From NCBI GenBank assembly GCA_028712475.1, contig JAQTQB010000004.1:131368-195367 (forward strand): a DNA stretch of 64,000 bases, written 5' to 3'. Below are positions 34,598-42,780 of this stretch, one piece after another; position 1 is the stretch's first letter, and every line of letters starts with the position of its first letter. The notes below the pieces were generated by a model. It made no database searches, had not been told where the DNA came from, and worked only from the letters and a program-made list of their open reading frames with translations. This DNA is from Verrucomicrobiales bacterium. Its GTDB lineage: Bacteria > Verrucomicrobiota > Verrucomicrobiia > Limisphaerales > UBA11358. Both the position numbers and the translations under genes were made by a program.

Positions 34598-37423
34598 ATG
34601 ATGCCCGCTCAACAACTGGCAACGCTGAATGCCGCGAACTGCGGAGTCGCCTTCGACAATCTCACGCGGCAGCTATACGCCACGGACGCGTCGCCCTACC
34701 AGGTCGTGCCGCTGGCGGTGGCGTTTCCGAAAAATGTGACGCAGGCCAGCTCCATCATCCAGGCGGCGGCGCAGGCCGGCGTGGCGGTGATTCCGCGCGG
34801 CGCGGGAACGGGTCTTTCCGGCGGGGCGATTGGCGAAGGGCTGGTCATTGATTTCGCGCGGCACAACCGGGAGATCTGGGATTTCAACAAGGAGGCCCGA
34901 ACCGTCCGCGTCGGGCCGGGCGTGGTGCTGGATCAGTTGAACAATTTTCTCCATCCGCGCGGATTTCGTTTCGGGCCGGACGTGGCGACCAGTTCCCGCG
35001 CGACGCTCGGCGGAATGATCGCGAACGATTCTTCAGGTTTGCACACGCCGGTCTATGGAACGACGGGGATGCATGTGAACGAACTGCAGATCGTCCTGGC
35101 TGACGGAAATGTTGTGAAGGTCGGCCCCGGCCACGACACCTTGCAGCGTCAACGGCTTCTGGTGGAAGACATGGTCTCGCTCAACTCGCTGCAGATTGCC
35201 GAACGCTTTCCGCCGGGGCTATTGAAGCGCTGGCCCGGTTATGCGCTGGCCCGCGCGGCACACGACCCGGCCAACCTGCTTTCTATTTTGACCGGCAGCG
35301 AAGGCACGCTGGCGGCGATCCTGGCGGCGGAGCTGAAAATTGTTCCGCTGCCACAGGAGCGCGGCGCCGGCCTGCTGTTTTTTGCGTCCGTGGCCGAGGC
35401 GATGCAGGCCACGGAAGCATTGCTCGAACTCAAGCCCGCCGCCATCGAGCACATTGACCGTCCGCTGTTCGACCAGACGCGCGGCCAGTTGGAATTTCAG
35501 GCCGCCCGCGACCTGCTCGAACTGGACACGAAGCCGTGCGAATCCATTTTGATCGTCGAATTTTTCGAGGACGTCAAAGCGCGGCTGGCGTTGCTGAAAA
35601 AAAAGAAACTCGGACTGCGCCGGTTGATTTTGCGGACGCAGGCCGAGGCTGATCTCGTGTGGGCAGTGCGCAAGGCTGGCTTGTCCCTGCTGACCGGCTG
35701 CAAAGGCAGCGCGAAGCCCGCGTGCTTTATCGAGGACGCGGCGGTGCGTCCGCAGGATCTGCCGGAATACGTCGGCAACCTGCAGGCATTGATGAAGAGC
35801 GTGGGCGTGTCGGCTTCCTATTACGGCCACGCGGCGGCGGGTCTGCTGCACGTCCGTCCCGTGCTGGATTTGCATCGCGACGCCGACCTGGAAAAATACC
35901 GGCAGATCGCCGACGAGGTTTCCGCGCTTGTGTTGCAATTCAAAGGTTCGCTCGCAGGCGAACATGGCGTGGGCATTGCGCGCACGGAATTTCTCAAGGA
36001 ACAGGTTGGCGCGGAACTTTACCGGCTGATGAAGGAGATCAAACTCTCCTTCGACCCGAACAATGTTTTTAATCCGGGCAAAATCATTGCCGATGGCCGC
36101 TACAAGATTGACCGCAACCTGCGGATCGGAGCGGGACGCCCCATTGAACTGCCGTTTGAACCGCATCTCGCGTTTGCGGCCAGGGACGGGTCATTCGCCG
36201 GCAATCTGGAACAGTGCAACGGCTGCGGCGGCTGCATCAAGATGACGCCGACGATGTGTCCGACATATATCGCGACCGGCGAAGAAATCATGTCCACGCG
36301 CGGTCGTGCCAACGCGATCCGCGCGTCGCTGGAGTTGCGCGGAACGGGCGGCGACCCGTTACGCTCGGTCGAACTGGAGGCCGCGTTGAGCAATTGTCTC
36401 TCCTGCAAAGCCTGCACCACCGAATGTCCGTCCAATGTGAACATGGCGCTGCTCAAGGCCGAACTGCTGCACGCACGCATCCGCCGCGACGGGCTAAAAT
36501 TGCGCGAACGATTGTTGAGTGACGTGGATCAGCTCGGACGGATTGGCTGCACCCTGCCGGGCGTCGCCAACTTTCTTCTGAAGTCCGGTTCCCTGCGCCA
36601 CATCTTCGGGAAAGTTCTAGGCTTGACGCACGAACGCCTGCTGCCGCCGTTCGCGCGTGAACGATTTGATCATTGGTTTGCGAAGCGTCCGCCATTTCGG
36701 AAAGCCTTTCGCGGCCGCGTCATTCTTTGGGACGACACGTTTGCACGTTATCACGAGCCGGAGATCGGCATCGCCGCCGTCACCGTGCTGGAGACCGCCG
36801 GGTTTGAAGTCACGCTTCCGACGCAGCGCAAATGCTGCGGACGCCCGGCCTTCAGCATGGGCAACCTTGACGAGGCCGCAAAACTGGGGCGCCACAATCT
36901 CGCCCTCCTGAACCATGATCCTGATGAAGCTCCAATTATTTTTCTGGAACCGTCGTGCTACTCCATGTTCATCGAAGATTACCGCGAATTGAAATTGCCG
37001 GACACGGACAAGGTTGCGCGCCGCTGCATGTTGTTCGAGGAATTCATCGAGAATCTGCTCAAGCAGGAACCAAACGCCTTGAGATTTGATGAGGAGGCGC
37101 AGAAGCTTGTCATCCACGCGCATTGCCACGCGAAGTCTCTGGCCAACACCGGCTACATGCTCCAGCTTGCGGAGCGCCTGCCGAACCGGACGGTCACGAT
37201 GCTCGACACCGGCTGCTGCGGCATGGCCGGCGCATTTGGGATGCTGGAATCAAAGTATGAACTGTCATTGAAGGTGGCCGAGCCGCTCATCCAGAAAATC
37301 AAAAGCCAGCCTTACGGAACCGTCGTGGTGGCGTCCGGCACCAGTTGCCGCAATCAAATCCAGCACCTCGCCCTGAACATGACGCAGCACATGGCCTGCG
37401 TGCTGGCCGACGCGCTGGTGTGA
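34598..37423 (+). CDS. FAD-linked oxidase fused to 4Fe-4S/CCG domains (GlcD-GlcF fusion)
   Basis: PRGAGTGLSGGAIGEGLVIDF; GEHGVGIARTEFL; two CxxCxxC clusters (CNGCGGCIKMTPTMCPTY, CLSCKACTTECP); CCG motifs (KCCGRPAFSMGN, DTGCCGMAG). Confidence 0.92.
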   Translation: MMPAQQLATLNAANCGVAFDNLTRQLYATDASPYQVVPLAVAFPKNVTQASSIIQAAAQAGVAVIPRGAGTGLSGGAIGEGLVIDFARHNREIWDFNKEARTVRVGPGVVLDQLNNFLHPRGFRFGPDVATSSRATLGGMIANDSSGLHTPVYGTTGMHVNELQIVLADGNVVKVGPGHDTLQRQRLLVEDMVSLNSLQIAERFPPGLLKRWPGYALARAAHDPANLLSILTGSEGTLAAILAAELKIVPLPQERGAGLLFFASVAEAMQATEALLELKPAAIEHIDRPLFDQTRGQLEFQAARDLLELDTKPCESILIVEFFEDVKARLALLKKKKLGLRRLILRTQAEADLVWAVRKAGLSLLTGCKGSAKPACFIEDAAVRPQDLPEYVGNLQALMKSVGVSASYYGHAAAGLLHVRPVLDLHRDADLEKYRQIADEVSALVLQFKGSLAGEHGVGIARTEFLKEQVGAELYRLMKEIKLSFDPNNVFNPGKIIADGRYKIDRNLRIGAGRPIELPFEPHLAFAARDGSFAGNLEQCNGCGGCIKMTPTMCPTYIATGEEIMSTRGRANAIRASLELRGTGGDPLRSVELEAALSNCLSCKACTTECPSNVNMALLKAELLHARIRRDGLKLRERLLSDVDQLGRIGCTLPGVANFLLKSGSLRHIFGKVLGLTHERLLPPFARERFDHWFAKRPPFRKAFRGRVILWDDTFARYHEPEIGIAAVTVLETAGFEVTLPTQRKCCGRPAFSMGNLDEAAKLGRHNLALLNHDPDEAPIIFLEPSCYSMFIEDYRELKLPDTDKVARRCMLFEEFIENLLKQEPNALRFDEEAQKLVIHAHCHAKSLANTGYMLQLAERLPNRTVTMLDTGCCGMAGAFGMLESKYELSLKVAEPLIQKIKSQPYGTVVVASGTSCRNQIQHLALNMTQHMACVLADALV

Positions 37424-37429
37424 AATTTG

Positions 37430-38221
37430 TCACCGGATGTGATGAGCCCGTCCCATCCAGACTTCGTCAAAGCCGGGTGAGTAATTGGCGCCGGACAGCC
37501 GCGCACCGCTGAACCACGGCCAGGTTTTCTTCAGCAACGAATCATCCGAAATTGAAACTTTCACTCGAATCTGCGGCCATGGCGGATGCCAGATGCGGAA
37601 GAACCGCCGCGTTGAACCGTGCGAAGTGAAGGCCGTGTAGCGTTCGAGGAGAAATTTATCGGGCGAATCATTTTCACACGGGGCAAAAGTCGTGTCCGGC
37701 GCAAGGCGCGCGTCGTAATTGAAATTGCAACGGCGATTGTGCGTTTCAACCTTGCCGGATAGACGGCCTTTTTCGTGCGCGTGCTTGTAATTTATTTTTG
37801 CGTAGTGATACGGCAGTCCATAAAGCAACGGCCCAAGCCGGACGCTCAACCAGTTCGACAGCCACTCGGTCAGGAAATAAATGCCGCCTTCGTCACCGTG
37901 GCGCACATACGTCCGCACGTTGAGAAACTCATGGGTTGAAACGGGCTTGAGCATCCATGACAGCGCCTTTCCGCCGATGCGAAAGCGCATATCAAGCATC
38001 GTGAAAGCGACGAGACTGACGTAAGCCTTGCCATCGCGCAGATCAATTGGAAACGGCACGTCGCGTTGCAACTGCACCGCGTCCACTTCAAAGTGGATGA
38101 ACAGCACGCGCTCCCAGCCCGCGAGAAACGGCGGCTCGCCGCGCCGCGACAGCAGACGCGCCCTGCCCGCGTCGCTTAATGTCTGCGCCGGCTTTTCCAG
38201 AATGGATGATGAAAGATTCAT
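37430..38221 (-). CDS. DUF2071-type protein
   Basis: WERVLFIHFEVDAVQLQRDVPFPIDLRDGKAYVSLVAFTML. Confidence 0.75.
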   Translation of the reverse strand: MNLSSSILEKPAQTLSDAGRARLLSRRGEPPFLAGWERVLFIHFEVDAVQLQRDVPFPIDLRDGKAYVSLVAFTMLDMRFRIGGKALSWMLKPVSTHEFLNVRTYVRHGDEGGIYFLTEWLSNWLSVRLGPLLYGLPYHYAKINYKHAHEKGRLSGKVETHNRRCNFNYDARLAPDTTFAPCENDSPDKFLLERYTAFTSHGSTRRFFRIWHPPWPQIRVKVSISDDSLLKKTWPWFSGARLSGANYSPGFDEVWMGRAHHIR

Positions 38222-38238
38222 TGTTCATGCGTCGGAAA

Positions 38239-39168
38239 TTATTTGGAGAGGTCCGCCAGCGCGCCGCGCAGTTCGGGAAATTGAAATTTGAACCCCGAAG
38301 CCAGCAATTTTCCCGGCACGACGTAACGGCTTTTGATGAGCAATTCCGTCTCCGTCCGCAGAAAAAATGCGCCGACTTCCAGCATCCATTCTTCAGCCGG
38401 AAGACCAAACGGAGCGCCGCACGCTTCACGAATTAGTTTCATCGTTTCGTGATTCGGCAGCGGATTGGGCGCGGCGAAATTGACCGGCCCGCTCATGTCG
38501 TCATGGATGATGAGCCATTCAACCGCGCGGCAAAAATCTTCCTGATGAATCCATGAAACAAATTGTCGGCCACCGCCCATTTTCCCACCGAGACCAAGCC
38601 GCGCAAGCCGTCGCAACACGGGAAACACGCCGCCGTCCCTGCCAAAAACGAGTGTGATGCGCATGGCGACTTTGCGCGTGTTTGGCGTCCGCGCCTCATT
38701 CAGCGCGCGTTCCCACTCGCGGATTACTTCGATGGAAAATTCGTCCTTCGCTTCCGCCGTCGCGCCGACTTCGCCCTCCTCGTCCATCGGCGTGTTGAAC
38801 GTATGCTTGTAAAGCGTCGCCGAACTGGCGTTGAGCCACACGCGCGGCGGCCGCTTGCACTTCGCAATCGCTTCGCCCAAACCGCGCGTCGAATCCACCC
38901 GCGAAGCTATGATGGCTTTGCGATTGGCCTCGGTGTAACGGCAATCCACGGACTTGCCCGCCAGATTGATGACCACTTCCGCGCCGTCCACAAACTTCGC
39001 CCATTCGCCCAAAGATTTTGCGTCCCAGAAAATTTCCTCCACGCCGTCACCGCGCTCGCGCGGCGAACGCGTCAGGACGACAACTTCGCAATCGCGCTGG
39101 ATAAATTTCTTCGCCAGGGCATTGCCGAGAAAACCGCTGCCACCGGCGAGGATGATTCGCTTTTTCAT
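38239..39168 (-). CDS. TIGR01777-type NAD-dependent epimerase/SDR
   Basis: ILAGGSGFLGNALAKKF, VINLAGKSVDCRYTEANRKAIIASRVDSTR. Confidence 0.9.
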   Translation of the reverse strand: MKKRIILAGGSGFLGNALAKKFIQRDCEVVVLTRSPRERGDGVEEIFWDAKSLGEWAKFVDGAEVVINLAGKSVDCRYTEANRKAIIASRVDSTRGLGEAIAKCKRPPRVWLNASSATLYKHTFNTPMDEEGEVGATAEAKDEFSIEVIREWERALNEARTPNTRKVAMRITLVFGRDGGVFPVLRRLARLGLGGKMGGGRQFVSWIHQEDFCRAVEWLIIHDDMSGPVNFAAPNPLPNHETMKLIREACGAPFGLPAEEWMLEVGAFFLRTETELLIKSRYVVPGKLLASGFKFQFPELRGALADLSK

Positions 39169-39971
39169 ATAGTTGTCCTTTCAGAAACAATGAGCCGTCC
39201 ACGCGCCTGCCATTCGTGGGCAATCCCGCGCATAAGGAAAGCACTGTCAAATTTTGCGGAACCAGATGGAAACAATTCTGTGTTTCCAAAAAGGCTCGAA
39301 GCGACGTGCTCAACAGCCAAAGGCTCCATCCGCCATTCGCGGCAGACTAATTCCAGACCATCAAACTCGCCATGCATCGGACGGGCAGACCAGCCTAATG
39401 CACCGCCGTGAAAAAAATCCGAAGCCTCGGCAAGCGAATTGAAAACCGATCCGCCCGGCATTCCGTCTATCACCCGCGCCGCCACACGAACGAACGCCTC
39501 GCCGTCCTCGCTCTGCATTTCCAGTTTGAAGTGATTTTCCGTTTCATTGATTTCAAATTTCGCGGCGTGATGTATGCCGGGAAAAACCTTGCCGCCAACC
39601 AGCCGATTCAGCGACGCATTCGTGTCGCGGCGCGGAATAAAAACACCCTCACGCGTCGCGCCGTCTTCATCCCATTCCACGGCGATGCGATGTGCGGCAT
39701 TTTCCGAAGTCAATCCGCCAAATGCGGGCAGGAAGGCCGGGCGGATTCCGCCGAGCCGAATGAGACAAATGCCAGCCATGCCCCAACCACTGACCAACTT
39801 TGGGCGGAACGGCGGCGGCAACAATCGGGCAAGCATATCAGGCTCGCAGCGAAAATTGACAAGCATCCTGCGCTCAATTATTCCGCTTACCACCGGCAGA
39901 TGAAAAAGTGGTTGATGAATCGTGAATGAATTTGCGTTATTCATCCCTTGCCTCCTTTCCACGCAACCCAT
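39165..39971 (-). CDS. DUF2071/acetoacetate-decarboxylase-like protein
   Basis: ERRMLVNFRCEPDMLARLLPPPFRPKLVSGWGMAGICLIRLG. Confidence 0.7.
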   Translation of the reverse strand: MGCVERRQGMNNANSFTIHQPLFHLPVVSGIIERRMLVNFRCEPDMLARLLPPPFRPKLVSGWGMAGICLIRLGGIRPAFLPAFGGLTSENAAHRIAVEWDEDGATREGVFIPRRDTNASLNRLVGGKVFPGIHHAAKFEINETENHFKLEMQSEDGEAFVRVAARVIDGMPGGSVFNSLAEASDFFHGGALGWSARPMHGEFDGLELVCREWRMEPLAVEHVASSLFGNTELFPSGSAKFDSAFLMRGIAHEWQARGRLIVSERTTI

Positions 39972-40366
39972 GCATAAATAACTGGCAAATAGACAAAGAC
40001 GATGTTGATCGCATGATAACCAAGCCGCCGGGGAAAATTTGTCAAATAAGGCCGCATATCAAAAATAAAAGTCCCGGCAATCAGCCTGATTGTCCAAAAC
40101 ACAGCGAAGAACGCGCAGAGAGCACGGGCCAGATTGCCGCCTGCCGCAAGCGTATCGGCAAATGTGACGGTGATGACGCCAAAACTCACCAAACAAAGTC
40201 CGATGAAAGAATAATAGACCCAAAACAGTTGCCGGATAAATGGCGGCAGCGCGGCGAGATGCGTTCGCATATTGACGACTCGCGGCATAAGCGCACCCGC
40301 ACACATCAATCCAAGATGCAGCACACCGGCGATTTGAAGCAACAAGGTCAGGTTTGGCGTTTTCAT
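39941..40366 (-). CDS. Small membrane protein of unknown function
   Basis: About 4 hydrophobic segments; between the DCC-MBOAT and DUF2071 genes. Confidence 0.65.
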   Translation of the reverse strand: MKTPNLTLLLQIAGVLHLGLMCAGALMPRVVNMRTHLAALPPFIRQLFWVYYSFIGLCLVSFGVITVTFADTLAAGGNLARALCAFFAVFWTIRLIAGTFIFDMRPYLTNFPRRLGYHAINIVFVYLPVIYAWVAWKGGKG

Positions 40367-40373
40367 TTTTCTT

Positions 40374-41636
40374 TCAGGTTGCGCCGATGGCTTGAAGCAT
40401 CGGCAGGATTACGTTGCGGACAAAAATTGGATGAAAAAGCCAGAAGGCAGGGCCGACGGTGCAAATTGCCGTGAACAGCCAGCCGCGCCAGCCACGCCCA
40501 AATCCAAGCCAGTTCGCAAAAGTTGTGCGTTCGAAAACCACGCCGAGTCCTTGGATCAAAAAATACGCCGTCGGCAAACCGTAGCCGCCGCGCGCAGGCA
40601 GCGAGATGATAAAATCGTGGATCAATCCAGAAAGTAAAAACACAAGGATCGTCGCCACCGTTGCCCCGCATTTTCGCAACAATGGCCGGAAGGCAAAATC
40701 ATTCACCAGAATATGAAAAGCTGCGTTCCAGCGTCGTCCCCAAAAATCGGCCAGCGACGTTGACCGCAACGGTTCGCGCATAATGGGCTGGGCGCTCACC
40801 CCGGCTCTCTGCCAGACCAGCGCAAGCAGTTGGAACAATCCAAAGTGCAGGCACAGGATGAATCCTACCATGCTAATCCAGCCAGCAGCCAGGGGCTGCG
40901 TTCCAAGAAAGCGGCGAGCCACTAACCAGATCAAAACAACACCGAGAAAAATTTTGCCTGCCGCCAGCAGCCAGTCGCCCGGTTTTGGCGCAATAACATT
41001 GCGCTTGCCGCGAAGAAAATTCCTTGCATCCATGCCAACCCAGACGAACAAATATCCGAGAGAAATAAATCTGTTTACGCCGTGGATTTGCCGTAACGCC
41101 CTTCGCCATGTCAGCCATTTGCAGCTGGAAAAAATCGAGAACGCCAGCAGCCACATGAAAATCCACGCCGGTAGAAAATCCCTCGTGAAGACAATCAGCG
41201 GCGGCAAAAAAAACAAAGGCAGCCAGTCGCTGATTTGATTTTGCTTTGGAATCTCGCAAGCGCCGTTCAAGCAGTGCCGGTTCACGGCAATCCAGCGATA
41301 GCCGGACCGGAACAAAAACTTCACGCCGGGAACCTGCGCCAGCGCGAACAGCGGCATTGCCCACCAGATTCGTCGCGCGATTTGCACCAACGCATCCGCG
41401 CCTCCGTAAATCCGTCCGTCCTCCACCAGTAATTTCATCTCGGCCAGCGGCTCGCCTGTATTCAAGCCGATCCTTTGTTGCACCCATGCCGTTTGCAACG
41501 GCGCGAGACCGAAATGATAGCGGTGCAGCGTCGGCGCGAACCGTGCGACGGCGTTGAGGCAAAGCGGACACTCGCCGTCGTAAAGCACCCAGCTTTGCGC
41601 CGTTTCAATCGTTCGTTCTGGAATTGCAGCATTCAC
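40374..41636 (-). CDS. DCC (DUF393) domain fused to wax-synthase-like MBOAT membrane domain
   Basis: N-terminal WVLYDGECPLCLNAVARF (DCC); C-terminal LADFWGRRWNAAFHILVNDFAFRPLLRKCG...FLLSGLIHDFIISLPARGGYG (wax-synthase-like). Confidence 0.8.
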   Translation of the reverse strand: MNAAIPERTIETAQSWVLYDGECPLCLNAVARFAPTLHRYHFGLAPLQTAWVQQRIGLNTGEPLAEMKLLVEDGRIYGGADALVQIARRIWWAMPLFALAQVPGVKFLFRSGYRWIAVNRHCLNGACEIPKQNQISDWLPLFFLPPLIVFTRDFLPAWIFMWLLAFSIFSSCKWLTWRRALRQIHGVNRFISLGYLFVWVGMDARNFLRGKRNVIAPKPGDWLLAAGKIFLGVVLIWLVARRFLGTQPLAAGWISMVGFILCLHFGLFQLLALVWQRAGVSAQPIMREPLRSTSLADFWGRRWNAAFHILVNDFAFRPLLRKCGATVATILVFLLSGLIHDFIISLPARGGYGLPTAYFLIQGLGVVFERTTFANWLGFGRGWRGWLFTAICTVGPAFWLFHPIFVRNVILPMLQAIGAT

Positions 41637-41647
41637 AAAAATTCAAA

Positions 41648-42181
41648 TCATTTCCCTATGCCCAGCAGTTTCTGAATTTTGCCGCCGAGCTTCACAAATT
41701 TCGTCAACGCACTCGTCGGCCAGCTTCGGATTTGCTCATACCATTCGTTTGTCGTCTCAAAAAATCCCGCGAGGTCGCGGAGACGCTGCTCGGTGTATTT
41801 GCCGGTGGCGGAATCTTCCTTCGCCTTGGCGATGCACTCTCGCAAGACTGCCAGCGTCGGGTCAATCTCCCGCTTCTTTCGCTCGTCCAGCACGATGCGG
41901 AATGTCTCCCACACGTCCGGCAGCGCCTCGAAATGGTCGCGCTTGTCACCCATCACATGCACGAGCTTCACGATGCGCCAGCCCTGTAATTCCTTGAGGC
42001 TGTTGCTGACATTTGAACGCGCCACCGCCAGCGTGTCGCTGATCTCCTCGGCATTGAGCGGCTTGGGCGTGATGTAAAGCAGCGCGTGGATCTGCGCGAC
42101 GGTGCGGTTGATGCCCCACTTGGTTCCCATCTCGCCCCAATGCAGGATGAACTTCTGTTCGACCGGGCTTAGCTTATTCAT
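41648..42181 (-). CDS. GbsR/MarR-type transcriptional regulator
   Basis: HWGEMGTKWGINRTVAQIHALLYITPKPLNAEEISDTLAVARSNVSNSLKELQGWRIVK; start MNKLSPVEQKF at 42181 preferred. Confidence 0.88.
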   Translation of the reverse strand: MNKLSPVEQKFILHWGEMGTKWGINRTVAQIHALLYITPKPLNAEEISDTLAVARSNVSNSLKELQGWRIVKLVHVMGDKRDHFEALPDVWETFRIVLDERKKREIDPTLAVLRECIAKAKEDSATGKYTEQRLRDLAGFFETTNEWYEQIRSWPTSALTKFVKLGGKIQKLLGIGK

Positions 42182-42192
42182 AATTCTTTTAT

Positions 42193-42217
42193 TTCTGTCA
42201 CAACAGAATTTACAGAA
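42193..42217. promoter_or_regulatory. Candidate operator upstream of the GbsR-type regulator
   Basis: TTCTGT-CACA-ACAGAA inverted repeat plus a further ACAGAA half-site (42212-42217). Confidence 0.4.
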
Positions 42218-42263
42218 TATAAGGAATATCGTCAAGCTGATTTTTGAAGAAAACTGCGTCCGG

Positions 42264-42713
42264 TCAAGCGGGTGTATGAATCAAGCCGAGCTGCGGAAGG
42301 TTGGCCTGGGTCAATGGGTTGACCTTGAAATCGTGTAATTCGAGTTGGCCGAGCCAGCTTTGAATCAACGCCTGCACCCGTTCCAAGTCCAACTGCTCAT
42401 GGACGCGGGGATATTTTCCCAGGTTCGCCTGGGACAGCTTGAACAGCGCGGCGGACGGACGCAGCCGGTTCTTTTGCAGATGCACAAATGCACCGGCAAG
42501 CTGGATGAGCCCCTTGTAAAAATTTCCGTTCGCTCCGTGGCGGTCGGGCAGCCACAAATTTTCCAGCACATCGTGCGCCTCGTAAAAAAGCTGGCGGTTG
42601 AAGCAGTCGAAATATCCGAGGTAATGCGCGTCGAGTTCCCGTCCCTGGAAGGATTCGATCATCGCGGCGATGCGGGCGCTTTTATGGCTCACCGGTTCAG
42701 GATAAAGTCCCAT
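42264..42713 (-). CDS. DUF309-type protein
   Basis: FNRQLFYEAHDVLENLWLPDRHGANGNFYKGLIQLAGAFVHLQKNR; start at 42713 inferred. Confidence 0.8.
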   Translation of the reverse strand: MGLYPEPVSHKSARIAAMIESFQGRELDAHYLGYFDCFNRQLFYEAHDVLENLWLPDRHGANGNFYKGLIQLAGAFVHLQKNRLRPSAALFKLSQANLGKYPRVHEQLDLERVQALIQSWLGQLELHDFKVNPLTQANLPQLGLIHTPA

Positions 42714-42780
42714 GCCCAAAGTCCAAAGGCTAAAGTCGTGCCGGCTTGACGCTGCTCCGTGTCCCGGTAAAGTCCAGCCC

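Follow-up and report, generated by a model that had tools for sequence, protein, structure and literature searches.

A predicted GbsR-repressed operon of a Verrucomicrobiales bacterium that may acylate a membrane lipid

In a 64,000-nucleotide stretch of a Verrucomicrobiales genome (contig JAQTQB010000004.1 of assembly GCA_028712475.1, positions 131,368 to 195,367; here called the window) we identified a tight operon of six genes on the minus strand (37430-42181, defined by ORF coordinates and by Pfam and NCBIfam profile matches), which we take, with somewhat more confidence than doubt, for an accessory and locally repressed operon for the acyl modification of membrane lipids. From 5' to 3' it encodes a GbsR-type repressor, a DCC-MBOAT_2 fusion (g2), a four-helix membrane protein (mem), a divergent DUF2071 protein, a TIGR01777 SDR and a second DUF2071 protein (Table 1). 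We infer both the repression and the membrane-lipid acylation from sequence, and the product of the operon is probably an acylated membrane lipid that nobody has described. This reading is drawn from an MBOAT_2 domain with an intact active site, from its conserved partner mem, and from the desaturases and lipid-transport-like SRPBCC proteins of related clusters and the predicted regulon. Gaps of 11 bp (GbsR/g2), 7 bp (g2/mem) and 17 bp (SDR/second DUF2071) separate the genes, and mem and the first DUF2071 as well as the first DUF2071 and the SDR overlap by 4 bp. Coordinates and strand agree with the preliminary description of six same-strand genes with short or overlapping junctions, apart from two starts: GbsR begins at ATG 42181 instead of TTG 42235, and for the first DUF2071 ATG 39944 is more likely than 39971, as it is preceded by AGGAGG and forms a 4-bp ATGA overlap with the stop of the membrane-protein gene. 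The domains named in that description are likewise backed by Pfam and NCBIfam, in the case of the type B DUF2071 with a score below the cut-off.

Table 1: Features of the operon and of its predicted promoter region (window coordinates).
Feature	Position	Strand	Remarks
-35-like hexamer TTGACG	42230..42235	-	
-10-like hexamer TAAATT	42207..42212	-	spaced 17 bp from the -35; the operator overlaps it
Predicted GbsR operator ATTCTGTTGTGACAGAAA	42192..42209	-	18-bp palindrome that departs from TTTCTG-n6-CAGAAA at one position
GbsR/MarR-type transcriptional regulator, 177 aa	41648..42181	-	MarR_2/GbsR-type profiles; Mj223 1ku9
DCC1-like thiol oxidoreductase domain (CPLC) and MBOAT_2 wax-synthase-type acyltransferase (g2), 420 aa	40374..41636	-	GTG start
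Four-helix small membrane protein (mem), 141 aa	39941..40366	-	no Pfam or PDB match
Divergent DUF2071 (type B), 259 aa	39165..39944	-	PF09844 below cut-off
TIGR01777/SDR39U1-type atypical SDR with DUF1731 tail	38239..39168	-	TIGR01777 above cut-off
DUF2071 (type A), acetoacetate-decarboxylase fold, without a conserved lysine	37430..38221	-	PF09844 above cut-off

Upstream of the operon the window encodes a DUF309 protein (42264-42719), a 74% homologue of which also lies upstream of GbsR in locus L044. At the other end a convergent gene (34598-37423) for a 941-aa FAD-oxidase and iron-sulfur/CCG protein, related to the D-2-hydroxyglutarate dehydrogenase YdiJ, ends 6 bp from the end of the operon.

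Of 390 genomes of the phylum covered by a protein search, 14 encode the MBOAT domain. Scanning species genomes yielded 58 MBOAT loci from Verrucomicrobia, Planctomycetes and a few others, the last being mostly weak matches. Gene order was counted in the 47 loci with an MBOAT match of at least 100 bits; as near-duplicates occur in the homologue set (L068/L069/L074/L079, L071/L072 and L054/L056), these counts do not represent independent events. The order, whose conservation among relatives the preliminary description had put forward as one test of its proposal, turned out to be conserved: in 44 of the 47 loci the gene following MBOAT is mem, in the same orientation and mostly with a slight overlap or within 40 bp, GbsR is found upstream of MBOAT in 22, and in none of the 47 is a member of the gene set on the opposite strand. 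The SDR (12/47) and DUF2071 (11/47) are each present in about one quarter of the loci and thus are optional members, and the Planctomycete loci have mostly retained the MBOAT-mem core alone. The closest locus, L044, encodes a GbsR with 91% identity, a DCC-MBOAT fusion, mem, a fatty-acid desaturase, DUF2071B and the SDR, in the order of the window except for the inserted desaturase. As the order recurs across many genera and L044 holds four more members in order besides its closely similar GbsR, the grouping goes beyond chance, and one genome of the same genus lacks both MBOAT and mem, which makes the module accessory. A desaturase is also found in the cluster of L074 and an SRPBCC protein in that of L045. 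The single-chain fusion of DCC and MBOAT is confined to few loci (the window, L044, L045 and L073); DCC is separate but adjacent to MBOAT in L046, L047 and L051, and located downstream in clusters of the L068 type. L046, labelled Acidobacteriales, contains GbsR-DCC-MBOAT-mem, by transfer or by a binning error. A rearranged same-strand cluster (L078:1070-7932) consists of GbsR, c14, DCC, DUF2071A, SDR, a c52-family protein, MBOAT and mem; the c52 family is that of the DUF805-SRPBCC protein of L045.

The Pfam search gave E-values of 5.7e-16 for the DCC1-like domain of g2 and of 3.9e-10 for MBOAT_2, the latter with 40.3 bits against a cut-off of 25. The fusion also gave a PDB sequence match with T7 DNA polymerase (E 0.3), which we put down to chance. 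Among the MBOAT homologues the motifs FWGRRWN and SGxxH are near-invariant, the F, the W and the WN of the first and the histidine of the second being present in 68 of 68 sequences; this catalytic histidine is residue 340 of g2. Judged from these nearly invariant motifs, g2 should be an active O-acyltransferase. Plant-type MBOAT wax synthases share the MBOAT_2 domain with both motifs, whereas g2 is bacterial, is partnered by its own four-helix membrane protein and belongs to a family that is sometimes fused to DCC. MBOAT_2 also includes acetyl- and sterol-acyltransferases, and 'wax synthase' is therefore a label only. The operon might nevertheless serve neutral lipid storage, with the MBOAT esterifying fatty alcohols or hopanoids with acyl-CoA to wax esters or steryl/hopanoid esters, as MBOAT_2 is the plant wax-synthase domain and a squalene-hopene cyclase-type gene is present in the same genome. 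We consider this unlikely, since no fatty-acyl reductase was found in the operon or among the scanned neighbour genes and the NAD_binding_4 matches of the genome are generic, of a kind found in 14 of 14 control genomes. Furthermore, a dedicated repressor and companions such as SRPBCC, DoxX and DCC would fit membrane modification better than bulk storage.

The predicted model of mem is confident (pLDDT 94), and W91 and R94 are invariant in an alignment of 47 family members. Neither by sequence nor by fold was a PDB relative found (none with E <1), nor was there any Pfam match; fold similarities to the sigma-2 receptor and to LTC4 synthase were non-significant and both candidates were rejected. 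The family occurs in 24 of 380 genomes of a drawn sample of the phylum, which contain all 14 MBOAT genomes (p ~1.7e-19 for the co-occurrence, with relatedness ignored). Ten sampled genomes carry mem without MBOAT, so mem is not exclusive to MBOAT; some of these copies lie beside DUF2071 or GbsR (L105, L107, L113), and MBOAT genomes contain further copies beside DUF2071B-like genes (L112, L116). The variant cluster L107:6095-7835 consists of GbsR, mem and DUF2071A, with no MBOAT. A divergent paralogue, mem2, directly precedes DUF2071A in L031, L037, L040, L051 and L072, and a DoxX_3-like gene follows DUF2071A in L031, L037, L040 and L072.

The regulator, assigned to the winged-HTH family of GbsR and Mj223, matches the CudC model with an E-value of 2.9e-11, below its equivalog cut-off, and Mj223 (1ku9) with 3.5e-12; the linker aromatics are present, and the reference positions of the aromatic cage, which refer to the osmostress branch only, are not alignable. 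The 18-bp palindrome in front of these GbsR genes is new here. Allowing at most one mismatch and a distance of at most 70 bp, TTTC[T/A]G-n6-C[A/T]GAAA was found upstream of 22 of the 23 GbsR genes, with a chance expectation of about 0.004-0.015 per locus, and most loci have a second copy between GbsR and the acyltransferase. The operator of the window is of the T-type with one mismatch; an exact second operator was searched there and rejected, as the copy present is degenerate with 3 mismatches. Since the inner 16-mer has its sole exact match in the 3.4-Mb genome at this place, the repressor seems to be reserved for the operon. The base at position 5 of the half-site tracks the recognition helix, with 14 T to 2 A for ARSNVS and 0 to 7 for SRGNA (p 1.5e-4, from few lineages that are not independent). 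The footprint of the GbsR-type protein CydE, TATTTCAGAAATTTCTGAAAGTTCA, includes the A-type 18-mer TTTCAG-n6-CTGAAA exactly (PMC6096048), whereas most GbsR proteins of the module pair a T-type half-site with the ARSNVS helix. GbsR, OpuAR and CydE share the sequence family and the Mj223 fold template with our regulator, but its target here is an acyltransferase/SDR/DUF2071 operon and not osmolyte or cytochrome bd genes.

Searching whole genomes for the operator, we found it in one relative (G023), where it precedes a c14-family membrane gene (L122:3040-3501) by about 42 bp; this gene is followed by an SRPBCC gene and an SRPBCC-like gene with no Pfam match. In G023 the operator also lies before a class-I methyltransferase gene (L124:3338-4259). 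As c14 genes lie inside the module in L068, L069, L078 and L079, the search recovered a module gene independently of gene order. The reversed pattern, used as a control, gave 0-3 matches per genome, and four of the other genome-wide matches, located inside a coding sequence (L123) or within long ORFs (L125, L126, L127), look like chance; further matches lie in G023 C27 and C49, G015 C288, G191 C4 and G237 C5. The methyltransferase, as a predicted regulon member, might be taken as a sign of a locus for lipid protection against light or oxidative stress, like the light-inducible LitR/photolyase/UfaM cluster of Pseudomonas with its furan-fatty-acid synthase, which also combines an SDR and a fatty-acid-modifying enzyme with a local regulator (PMC9758184). 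This is improbable: the regulator class differs from LitR, the cluster has no CFA/UfaM-type gene, the methyltransferase matches generic class-I models and not CMAS, and the photolyase FAD-binding domain PF03441 is absent from the genome (97.95% complete), leaving a light response unsupported here. The preliminary description had called the co-occurrence of TIGR01777, DCC and DUF2071 in light- or stress-responsive lipid-modification loci established, for which the literature search gave no support: DUF2071 turned up in one paper and TIGR01777/DUF1731 in two unrelated ones. The membrane-lipid or acyl-transfer pathway it proposed stands as the best reading, whereas the operator, the Planctomycete MBOAT-mem core and the restriction of the DCC fusion to few loci had escaped it. 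Just as improbable is a loose set of membrane-stress genes under one GbsR (osmotic or respiratory stress) with no common pathway, for although characterised GbsR regulators have roles in the osmostress response or in the control of cytochrome bd (PMC6207618, PMC6096048) and the members other than MBOAT-mem vary, the conserved set contains no compatible-solute or cyd genes and the MBOAT-mem adjacency is far too regular.

The SDR is a full-length match to TIGR01777 (249.6 against a cut-off of 207.35), as are YfcH, SDR39U1 and ThyD, but sits here in an operon; its nearest solved relatives are SDR39U1 and a SulA-family protein (PDB relatives 4b4o and 3oh8), and its DUF1731 tail (PF08338, 5.6e-12) is the only one in the genome. 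Both DUF2071 copies of the genome are located in the operon. Type A matches PF09844 with 134.9 bits (E 3.9e-39), type B with 20.9 bits (E 0.00031) against a cut-off of 27, which the type B homologue of L066 exceeds with 32.9 bits. The model of type A shows the ADC fold (best match 5upb, E 4.7e-11; all 24 PDB matches with E <0.001 are ADC-like), a predicted fold shared with ADC, MppR and Swit_4259. However, no invariant lysine that could form a Schiff base was found in 12 homologues, and an acetoacetate decarboxylase was rejected on this basis; the missing lysine of DUF2071 has been noted before (PMC4520260).

For the acylation of a membrane lipid we propose the following model. According to sequence and literature the GbsR-type protein would bind the palindrome over the -10 region of the promoter from which it is itself transcribed; in most relatives it would bind the second copy before the acyltransferase as well. 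Transcription would be blocked until a small ligand releases the repressor. The MBOAT_2 domain would then use an activated donor to acylate the hydroxyl of a lipid (a fatty alcohol, a hopanoid, a glycolipid or similar), assisted by mem and, in the lineage of the window, by the fused thiol-redox DCC domain. The TIGR01777 SDR may reduce or prepare the acceptor lipid, and the two DUF2071 proteins (with the ADC fold modelled for type A) may bind or process a hydrophobic intermediate with no Schiff-base chemistry.

The literature search found no description of this gene set or of a bacterial MBOAT_2 partner. Tentatively, and with less confidence than for the operon itself, the module could represent a new bacterial system for membrane-lipid acylation, made of a wax-synthase-type MBOAT and an obligate four-helix membrane subunit, together with a new lipid-sensing GbsR branch with its own operator code; the MBOAT-mem core would then belong to Verrucomicrobia and Planctomycetes and the control by GbsR to Verrucomicrobia. 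One predicted regulon ties together an orphan acyltransferase family, two orphan families (the four-helix protein and c14) and several DUFs. The proposed switch is testable and would offer a direct path to a new bacterial lipid, and it might bring the function of TIGR01777 and DUF2071, which are widespread yet uncharacterised, within reach.
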